Shown: piece by piece, positions 36,262 through 48,518 of the stretch
How positions within the stretch are numbered: position 1 is the first letter of the stretch
Layout of the letters: the number at the start of each line of letters is the position of its first letter
DNA from: Cohnella candidum
GTDB taxonomy: Bacteria; Bacillota; Bacilli; Paenibacillales; Paenibacillaceae
DNA: 64,000 bases
Direction of reading: 5' to 3'
NCBI RefSeq assembly: GCF_003713065.1
Contig: NZ_CP033433.1
Span: 1,089,001-1,153,000, forward strand
The notes under the pieces: model-generated
Databases searched by the model: none
What the model saw: only the letters and a program-made list of their open reading frames with translations
Told to the model about the DNA's origin: nothing
Program-made: the position numbers and the translations under genes

Positions 36262-39200
36262 ACAAGACACGAACGACAATAAGGATAAGCTTCGCGTTTA
36301 CGAATATGCCAAATCGCTCAACATGAGCAGCAAGGAAATCATCACGATTCTCAAAAGGCAGAACATGCCGGTCAACAATCACATGAGCGTGATGGAAGAC
36401 GGCATGGTCGGCGCGGTCGAGAAGTTCTTCCGCGACGTTAAAGCCAATGCCGCAGCCAAGATGGCGCAATCCGCAGCCAAGCCGGCCGCGCCGAAACCGG
36501 CGGGAGCACCGGCTTCTTCGCCTGCGCCTGCGCAAAACCAGCGGAAGCCGGAGGAGCAAGCGCCGCGTCAGCCGCAAGCCGTGACGCAGGCCGCAACGAG
36601 CGCGCCGGCGGGAACGGCACCGGCTGCATCCGCGCCGAGCCACGAAGGGCAAGGCCAAGGCAACCGTCCGCAGAGCCAAGGCGGTCAAGGCGGCGGGTAC
36701 CAAGGCAATCGCCCGCAAGGTCAAGGCGGTCAAGGCGGTGGCTATCAAGGTAACCGTCCGCAGGGCCAGGGTGGCGGATATCAAGGCAACCGCGACGGCA
36801 ACCGCCCGCAAGGTCAGGGCGGCGGATATCAAGGCAACCGCGACGGCAACCGCCCGCAAGGTCAAGGCGGCGGATACCAAGGCAACCGTCCGCAGGGCCA
36901 AGGCGGTCAAGGCGGCGGGTACCAAGGCAATCGTCCGCAGGGCCAAGGCGGTCAAGGAGGCGGGTACCAAGGCAACCGTCCGCAGGGCCAAGGCGGTCAG
37001 GGCGGCGGGTACCAAGGCAATCGTCCGCAGGGTCAAGGCGGCGGATACCAAGGCAACCGTCCGCAAGGCCAAGGCGGTCAAGGCGGCGGCTATCAAGGTA
37101 ACCGTCCGCAGGGTCAAGGCGGTCAAGGCGGCGGGTACCAAGGCAACCGTCCGCAGGGCCAAGGCGGTCAAGGCGGCGGCTATCAAGGTAACCGTCCACA
37201 GGGTCAAGGCGGTTTCGGCGGCGGCCGTCCGCAAGGCCAAGGCGGCGGCGGAGGATTCGGCGGAAACCGCGGCGCGGCTCCGGCCGGCGCACCGGCGCCG
37301 GCAGCACGCGGGGGACGCCCGGGCGACAACCGCGGCGGACGTCCGGACGCCAACAAAAGCCGTGAAGGCGGGTTCAACCGCGACGGCAAGCGTAAAGACA
37401 GCAACGATTTCGGCAAACGTTTCGATGAAGGCCGCGGCGGGTTTAGAAGCGGTAAAGGCAAAGGCGGCAAAAACGCCAAAGGCCGCGGCAACCAGCCGCA
37501 GCGCGAGAAAATCGACAACACGCCGAAGAAAGTTATCGTGCGCGGTGAAATGACGGTCGGCGAATTGGCCAAACTGTTGCATAAGGACGCTTCGGAAGTC
37601 ATCAAGAAGCTCCTCATGATGGGCACGATGGTCACGATCAACCAAGAGTTGGACCTCGATACCGTCCTGCTCGTCGCCGGCGAATACGGCGTAGAGACCG
37701 AAGTGAAGATCGTCGTCGAAGACACGAATTTCGAGACGGTAGAAGAGAACGACGATCCGGATGCGTTGGAAACCCGCGCACCGGTGGTCACGATCATGGG
37801 TCACGTCGACCACGGTAAAACGACGCTGCTCGACGCCATCCGCGAAACGAAAGTCGCGGCAGGCGAAGCCGGCGGCATTACCCAGCACATCGGCGCCTAC
37901 CAGGTTGAGACGAACGGGAAGAAAATCACGTTCCTCGATACCCCGGGCCACGAAGCGTTTACGGTCATGCGTTCCCGCGGCGCCCAAGTGACGGACATCA
38001 CGATTCTCGTCGTGGCGGCCGACGACGGCGTCATGCCGACGACCGTGGAAGCGATCAACCACGCCAAAGCGGCGAACGTGCCTATCATCGTCGCCGTCAA
38101 CAAAATCGATAAACCGGAAGCGAATCCGGACCGCGTGAAGCAGGAACTGACCGAGTACGGCTTGGTACAAGAAGCTTGGGGCGGGGATACGGTCTTCGTC
38201 GAAATTTCCGCGAAACAGCGCCAAAATCTCGACGAACTGCTCGACATGATCCTGCTCGTGGCGGAAGTCAACGACTACAAAGCGGTCGTGGACAAACGCG
38301 CCCGCGGCACCGTGCTCGAAGCCGAGCTCGACAAGGGTAAAGGTCCGGTTGCCCGCGTTCTGGTACAGAACGGTACCCTTAAAGTAGGCGATGCCTTCGT
38401 GGCAGGCGACTGCTTCGGACGCATCCGCGCCATGACGAACGACCGCGGCCGCCGCATCAAAGAAGCGGGACCTTCTACGCCGGTCGAAATCACCGGACTG
38501 ACGGAAGTGCCGCAAGCCGGCGATCCGTTCATGGTGTTCGAAGACGAGCGCAAAGCCCGCGAAATCGCCGACAAACGCGCGATCAAGACGCGTCAGGAAA
38601 CGATGAAATCGAACTCCAAGGTGACGCTCGACGATCTGTTCAACAAGATCAAAGAAGGCGAGATCAAGGACCTCAACGTCATCCTCAAGGCCGACGTGCA
38701 AGGCTCCTTGGAAGCCCTCAAGGGCTCGCTTGCCAAAATCGAGGTCGAAGGCGTTCGCGTCAAGTCGATTCACAGCGGCGTCGGCGCCATTACGGAGTCC
38801 GATATTCTGCTGGCGGCGGCTTCTTCCGCCATCGTCATCGGCTTCAACGTCGGCACGGAGCCCCGCGCGGCGCAAGCGGCCGAGCAGGAAAAAGTCGACG
38901 TGCGGCTGCACAACATCATCTACAAGGTGATCGAGGAAATCGAGCACGCCATGAAAGGCATGCTGGATCCGGTCTTCAAAGAAAAAATCATCGGCCACGC
39001 GGAAGTGCGCGAGACGTTCAAAGTCAGCAAAGTCGGCACGATCGCCGGCTGCATGGTCACCGACGGCAAAATCACCCGCGCGGCGGAAACCCGCTTGATC
39101 CGCGGCGGAAGCGTCGTATACGAAGGGAAAATCGATTCGCTCAAGCGGTTCAAGGATGACGCTCGCGAAGTGGCGGAAGGCTACGAGTGCGGCATCACGC

Positions 39201-48284: not shown

Positions 48285-48320
48285 AAGCCGTTCGGACCAA
48301 GAGTCCGGGCGGCTTTTTTT
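48285..48320 (+). terminator. Terminator after dut
   Basis: AAGCCGTTCGGAC pairs with GTCCGGGCGGCTT (two G-U pairs) and runs into seven T. Confidence 0.88.
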
Positions 48321-48330
48321 GCGCGGAATG

Positions 48331-48518
48331 CTGTAAGTCCGAAATGCACAATTATTCGACCCTTGGAACGGGAAGGAGGTGCCTTAGTTCGAAAAAACAC
48401 AATTGGAAGGCCGCTTTTTCGAATCTCACTTTAAAATCCTCCTCCAGTTGTGCAAATCCTACTTACAGCGGCGTTTCCCGCGACTTCTCTCCTGTAATTG
48501 TGCAAAACCCACTTACCG
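48331..48518. repeat. 188-bp imperfect palindrome of four 24-nt units
   Basis: Units at 48331-48354 and 48382-48405 (reverse), and 48445-48468 and 48495-48518 (forward). Forward units read (A/G)TTGTGCAAA followed by about 5 variable bases and ACTTAC; the second reverse unit is the most diverged. Unit starts are 51 nt apart on the left and 50 nt on the right, and both pairs centre on about 48425, so the whole folds as one long hairpin. It resembles a MITE or other interspersed repeat; no transposase is present. Confidence 0.7.

Follow-up and report, generated by a model that had tools for sequence, protein, structure and literature searches.

The window analysed here is a 64,000-nt stretch of the Cohnella candidum chromosome, and it contains, in the gap between dut and dpaA, two reverse followed by two forward copies of a short unit (Table 1). 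Successive units have their centres 51, 60 and 50 bp apart (U1-U2, U2-U3 and U3-U4, respectively), and the coordinates bear out the preliminary description in that the inner and outer pairs both centre on about base 48425, with spacings of 51 and 50 bp. Four units are indeed present, but the length of 24 nt originally assigned to each is better replaced by a block of 27 bp. With a repeat finder, U1/U4, U1/U3 and U3/U4 matches were reported, while U2, the most divergent of the units, was missed. The array has a GC content of 46.3%, compared to 51.3% for the dut-dpaA gap and 59.0% for the whole window, and so is more AT-rich than its surroundings, as had been noticed. The gap measures 397 nt here, and 132-456 nt in 11 relatives for which the end of dut was located by script. 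The nearest stop codon lies at 57 nt from the array, which leaves intact both the terminator-like hairpin of dut and a sigma-K-like promoter motif of dpaA. Elsewhere in the window, at 36655-37225, TRF finds 13 copies of an approximately 45-nt tandem repeat.

Table 1. The array between dut and dpaA and its flanking features (positions in the window).
Feature	Position	Strand	Sequence or remark
dut stop codon	48271-48273		
Terminator-like hairpin and T-run 3' of dut, immediately left of the array	48286-48320	+	by eye from sequence
Unit U1 (outer)	48331-48357	-	GAATAATTGTGCATTTCGGACTTACAG (unit orientation); centre 48344
Unit U2 (inner), T-run centre	48382-48408	-	TTCCAATTGTGTTTTTTCGAACTAAGG (unit orientation); centre 48395
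Central spacer separating inner units U2/U3	48409-48441	no strand	
Unit U3 (inner)	48442-48468	+	CTCCAGTTGTGCAAATCCTACTTACAG (unit orientation); centre 48455
Unit U4 (outer)	48492-48518	+	CTGTAATTGTGCAAAACCCACTTACCG (unit orientation); centre 48505
Sigma-K-like promoter motif of dpaA	48629-48659	+	motif match; also present in relatives

BLASTN, by which the preliminary description would have looked for further copies, found nothing but the locus itself in this genome when queried with 211 bp of it; across 36 other Cohnella genomes it gave a single partial match, a weak one. Other array copies are missed in this way because their spacers diverge, so that patterns made from the units are required. 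A first unit pattern gave no excess over the control (45 matches in the C. candidum genome versus 83), and its hits revealed the core; a refined core pattern then gave 64 matches versus 3 in the control. Four pattern places (L083-L086) had no partner unit, were taken as chance and were dropped. Arrays of the reverse-reverse/forward-forward type are present at 18 places in the genome (four or more units at 16 of them, three at the other 2), and remnants of the window-type array at 4 further places. Given this excess of core matches and their grouping into elements of the same geometry, the regularity is beyond chance. The suggestion of an interspersed repeat was therefore right, and the locus is not the single-copy sequence that had been named as the outcome to speak against it.

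Nearly all of these arrays are intergenic, and they fall into subfamilies whose members resemble one another but are scattered over the genome. According to a home-made gene caller, the flanking genes at 22 places (21 plus the window) are co-directional in 11 cases, convergent in 8, divergent in 2 and undecided in 1, with the nearest stop codon 11-133 nt from the array at 20 of the 22. If base 1 is the origin, the elements are distributed 3 versus 15 over the replichores (P 0.008). No window-type elements were found between 1.25 and 2.80 Mb of the genome (G000), and the second half of the record holds 15 of the 18.

The conserved block comprises 27 positions (73 distinct units from C. candidum plus 155 others), while the C. 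candidum spacers, at positions 21-47, carry at most 0.13 bits per position. In a survey of 38 elements (37 distinct, as L145 duplicates L125), neighbouring units are 50 or 51 bp apart and the inner units 68-70 from start to start, i.e., approximately 60-62 bp from centre to centre, ranges that are narrow partly by construction given that only neighbours at 49-52 and inner pairs at 66-71 were accepted. Exceptional steps of 59 bp and 58 bp are present in L125 and L139. Four tests compared units of the same arm with chance, and three of them found these units more alike (P 0.000, 0.012 and 0.009), the fourth not (P 0.14). A nearly fixed step, a free spacer and a difference between steps of about one helical turn are as expected for proteins on DNA. 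Of the earlier suggestion of a nucleoid-associated site, a protein site is likely in kind, whereas the nucleoid role itself belongs to a rival reading only.

The same symmetry had also led to the expectation of a long hairpin, or of a structured RNA made from the dut-dpaA gap. Arm pairing gives this no help: the test covered 15 of the 16 C. candidum elements that have four or more units, and in these 74.4% of cells in the nested U1-U4 and U2-U3 pairs can pair versus 76.4% in shuffles, and 498 of 500 shuffles were equal to or better than the real arrays, which largely contradicts such a structure. Nor are the arms matched to each other, as the likeness of inner reverse to inner forward units is 0.637 within the same element versus 0.687 between different elements for 18 C. 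candidum elements, and 0.700 versus 0.692 (P 0.26) for 20 other elements. Within units, Watson-Crick pairs are about as frequent as independent positions would give; positions within units do covary, but away from the pairing direction (for positions -4/16, CA 55, TA 55, TG 41 and CG 39 of 212). Unit covariation, arm similarity and nested-pair counts give no support to a hairpin RNA or a cruciform. The + strand of the window array alone does fold better than shuffles (z -2.37, 4/200; - strand, z -1.33), which may be as for any inverted repeat, and RNAalifold yields 26 pairs, 7 of them with at least one two-sided change, but with an unfavourable covariation term (+0.52). In addition, Rfam has no relevant match in the window region, in nine array loci or in six gene loci (described below). 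Even with the report that 52-nt repeats of B. coagulans are transcribed (PMC8161180), a structured RNA from this gap is therefore extremely improbable.

The array geometry is also found in other Cohnella (L118-L120, L122 and L125) and in Paenibacillus. A tandem-pair scan of species genomes yielded 24 stretches, 13 of them from Paenibacillus aestuarii, 5 from Cohnella, 3 from other Paenibacillus and 3 from others; under the filter used, the array is absent from the Flavobacterium (L140) and Perspicuibacillus (L146) stretches. Runs in one orientation reach 19 units (L136), and units within one array are often near-identical; arrays therefore grow by tandem duplication. The third of the other stretches, from Ureibacillus acetophenoni and so outside Paenibacillaceae, has four 51-bp copies with a similar core (L148:4458-4630). 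Two exact matches to the tandem-unit pattern are present in IMG/VR viral contigs (L156:8046-8106 and L157:6279-6339).

Among 29 other Cohnella loci, 28 lack window-type units over the 1.5 kb that precede dpaA. The dut-dpaA gap of genome G005 (L167:680-1300) has four window-like units 51 bp apart, in an array that differs from the one in the window, together with a second array of another type, and with two array types in one gap, this is perhaps a favoured site.

One place in the C. candidum genome, 2,919,946-2,920,617 (L208), has an open frame of 224 aa enclosed by two arrays of the window type. The product is nuclease-like (weak DUF559/Vsr-type matches) with a C-terminal winged helix; its 17.5 bits are below the curated Pfam cut-off of 38.2, and NCBIfam and PADLOC return nothing for it. 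Of 50 aligned family members, 36 are matched by DUF559 and likewise 36 by MTES_1575 (E values up to 0.1), while winged-helix families match the C-terminal part of the family proteins. Profiles of solved structures match the C-terminal part only, with best E values of 4.8e-5 (eS25) and 6e-4 (AdcR). Residues E57, D71, E84 and R106 are invariant in all 50 members. The first three fit the conserved acidic residues of a PD-(D/E)XK kind of nuclease, and their invariance suggests that enzyme activity has been retained.

Matches to the family profile occur in all 37 Cohnella genomes, with 2 to 15 copies each (10 in C. candidum). Across the class, 299 genomes were scanned: 99 show a family match of some kind, in many cases to the winged helix only, and 34, in eight families, have one with E below 1e-50. 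Some members are interrupted or fragmentary, namely L238 (G000 3,036,483-3,037,127), L249, which has an internal stop, and the fragment L257. Viral contigs searched with the C. candidum protein gave no relatives; a subfamily alignment finds one in IMG/VR (L277:1534-2196), and downstream of it lies a repeat of 18/22 spaced at 52 bp; for a viral-contig relative, AlphaFold without alignment gives a pLDDT of 39.

Window-type units adjoin each of the five closest relatives of the C. candidum gene found in other species (62-67% identical, two of them broken). They lie beside 2 of 30 paralogue loci in a first scan, namely L208, the units of which were in the training set of the unit model, and L209, and beside 4 of 30 in a second scan (L247, L248, L249 and L257), in which four of the 30 loci duplicate earlier ones. 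All six loci are the C. candidum gene and its closest relatives, L249 and L257 being one locus. Arrays lie on both sides of the gene in L208 and L209 and on one side in the remaining four. The outer flanks of L208, L209, L247 and L248 have no similarity, and gene and arrays therefore occupy different places.

More distant paralogues also tend to be accompanied by arrays with a 51-bp period, though of a different sequence. Direct similarity at exactly 51 bp is present in 34 of 57 loci versus 1 of 47 controls, counted without the six window-type loci and with a control list that omits the window locus. In a broader version (49-53 bp), the counts are 37 of 64 loci versus 4 of 48 controls, with the window's own element among the four; the duplicates L251-L254, and also L262, were left out of both. 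The periods of paralogue arrays peak at 51, and a clear array is lacking at some loci. Repeats spaced 50-52 bp with a similarity of at least 18/22 lie near nine of the 10 C. candidum genes; L240 has none by the same test. For relatives from outside the genus set, the same threshold is reached at 49-53 bp in 8 of 12.

The unit sequence, moreover, goes with the protein. Among 49 loci with a detectable array (again without these five loci, and also without L238), protein pairs at or above 50% identity share a motif in 19 of 112 cases and pairs below it in 1 of 1,064, so that shared unit motifs are almost confined to similar proteins; no motif is shared in 93 of the 112 close pairs, with unit picking that was crude. 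Arrays can also lie away from the genes. In 226 kb of C. candidum sequence, arrays of the L242, L244 and L245 types occur far from those genes, and one L242-type set (3,093,580-3,093,741) has steps of approximately 50, 63 and 48, i.e., much the same geometry with a different unit. Four genomes of the genus, G005, G006, G016 and C. terricola, carry window-type arrays, and the best relative of the gene in them is only 43-51% identical; such arrays can therefore persist without a close nuclease-like gene. Overall, the association of gene and array is strong; binding, cutting and spreading are what we infer.

Dispersed subfamilies of similar copies, and the absence of the array at dut-dpaA in nearly all other Cohnella loci, would also fit miniature elements moved by another transposase, with the link to the nuclease gene being secondary. 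Against this, Y1_Tnp (PF01797), the only transposase type searched, has 0 matches in the C. candidum genome, compared with matches in 5 of 14 control genomes. No target duplication or clean empty site was seen either in the one relative gap aligned, an alignment made by script that left the boundaries unclear. Since the unit type, in addition, follows the nuclease subtype, we consider mobilisation by another transposase improbable.

The arrays might instead serve the host, if a DNA-binding factor, perhaps a domesticated one, assembles on the phased arrays and organises the nucleoid or marks intergenic regions, and if the nuclease chemistry is incidental or concerned with repair. The nearly fixed steps with free spacer sequence and the intergenic places, mostly behind genes, agree with this, as does the polymerising protein and nucleoid role proposed for 52-nt repeats (PMC8161180). 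However, the three acidic residues are invariant throughout the aligned family, the places of both array and gene vary between species, and there are several paralogues per genome with their own sites each. We regard a host-serving array as unlikely.

Many family genes are preceded by a leader with a 4-bp stem and an AAGCA or AAGAA loop, followed by a terminator hairpin with T-run and then the ribosome site (for an example, see L208:1430-1500). Of 67 loci, 46 have the strict form (42 of 63 once four duplicates are removed); of 600 control windows, 3 have it. Covariation was measured on 19 leaders that had been chosen by eye because they carry the motif: 97.4% of cells pair and the covariation score is above all 500 shuffles, while two of five measures are not above shuffles (82 and 487 of 500). 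Rfam has no relevant match to the leader in the six gene loci. The leader reads as an attenuator.

An attenuator-like leader suggests a product that is kept scarce, as might be the case for a nuclease in defence or addiction, with the chromosomal arrays acting as decoys or self-marks that restrain it. Vsr-type domains are indeed found in conflict proteins (PMC3710099). A PADLOC match is, however, absent, and the arrays persist without a close gene in the four genomes mentioned above, leaving a conflict device with a low probability.

We lean slightly towards a nuclease-repeat system, of whose DNA site arrays the window palindrome would be one dispersed copy. A family protein would bind 27-bp imperfect palindromes of its own, probably through the winged helix and as a dimer. 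With a step of 50-51 bp, and one of approximately 60-62 bp (one helical turn more) across the inversion, neighbouring complexes would share rotational register and could touch. Repair after a cut or nick in an array would lengthen it in tandem and occasionally copy it to new intergenic places, a REP-like spreading by an unrelated enzyme, with the leader keeping the nuclease scarce. The array in the window would be a non-coding copy; set between the terminator of dut and the promoter of dpaA, it need not affect either gene. Whether multicopy Vsr-type nuclease/winged-helix proteins under an RNA attenuator each recognise, amplify and disperse their own phased palindromic arrays, and so constitute a new class of nuclease-driven self-spreading repeats, is a more tentative matter, to which we assign a little less than an even chance.

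If this is true, an enzyme type unrelated to RAYT would be a further means by which bacterial genomes fill with extragenic palindromes. With a gene family beside the arrays and unit motifs that follow the protein subtype, the question of a partner for the 52-nt repeats becomes directly testable. Cohnella genomes, with 2 to 15 copies of the gene each, would also provide natural protein-site pairs for following the co-change of a nuclease and its target.

Several known systems resemble parts of this one. The units diverge and tandem copies share spacers, and CRISPR was rejected on these grounds. MITEs such as Bcr1 (PMC3733652) are likewise short, non-coding, intergenic and dispersed, but the arrays differ from them in their variable tandem unit number and in spacers that are not conserved between copies. 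REPs and REPINs with their RAYT (REPtrons) are described as dispersed short extragenic imperfect palindromes, the enzyme gene being flanked by the same repeats (PMC3733652). Dispersed imperfect palindromes and a dedicated gene flanked by repeats are present here as well, though the gene is not a RAYT, the step is fixed at 51 bp and the enzyme has another fold; without a Y1_Tnp gene and conserved arm or unit pairing, REP/RAYT was rejected.

With respect to the protein, MTES_1575 has been described as a Vsr-type nuclease domain that stands beside winged helices (PMC3710099). The family resembles the Vsr, DUF559 and MTES_1575 domains both through the profile matches of 36 of its 50 members (E up to 0.1) and through the winged helix alongside, as in MTES_1575. 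It differs in that its proteins are small, have two domains and are encoded in multiple copies, and in the repeat arrays and RNA leader that accompany the genes. The proposed nuclease-repeat system lacks tested features of REP/RAYT and of structured RNA, and nothing seen establishes it as a MITE.

The closest published counterparts are the repeats of Subirana and Messeguer (PMC8161180), who report Bacillus repeats of 51-53 nt that are constant in size and variable in sequence, particularly abundant in Paenibacillus and present as several families per genome, with a short motif and its reverse within a repeat. That paper reports neither an obvious function nor evidence for a Cas-like partner, and suggests a polymerising protein or small RNAs. 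In the open-access literature, we found no nuclease linked to repeats of the 52-nt type. A partner protein, an inverted two-arm geometry and a leader, as described here, are not named by these authors. Their stated minimum is four copies; the window array has two direct copies per arm, and related arrays reach 19 (L136). Compared by description, with the paper's own species and repeats lying outside our sample, the arrays share with the 52-nt repeats a free sequence and a nearly constant period (50-51 bp steps, here in Cohnella and Paenibacillus) that reaches the 51-53-nt size. The array type of the window is probably related to these published Firmicutes repeats, and a 51-bp step set by the geometry of a protein assembly would explain why their length is constant while their sequence changes.
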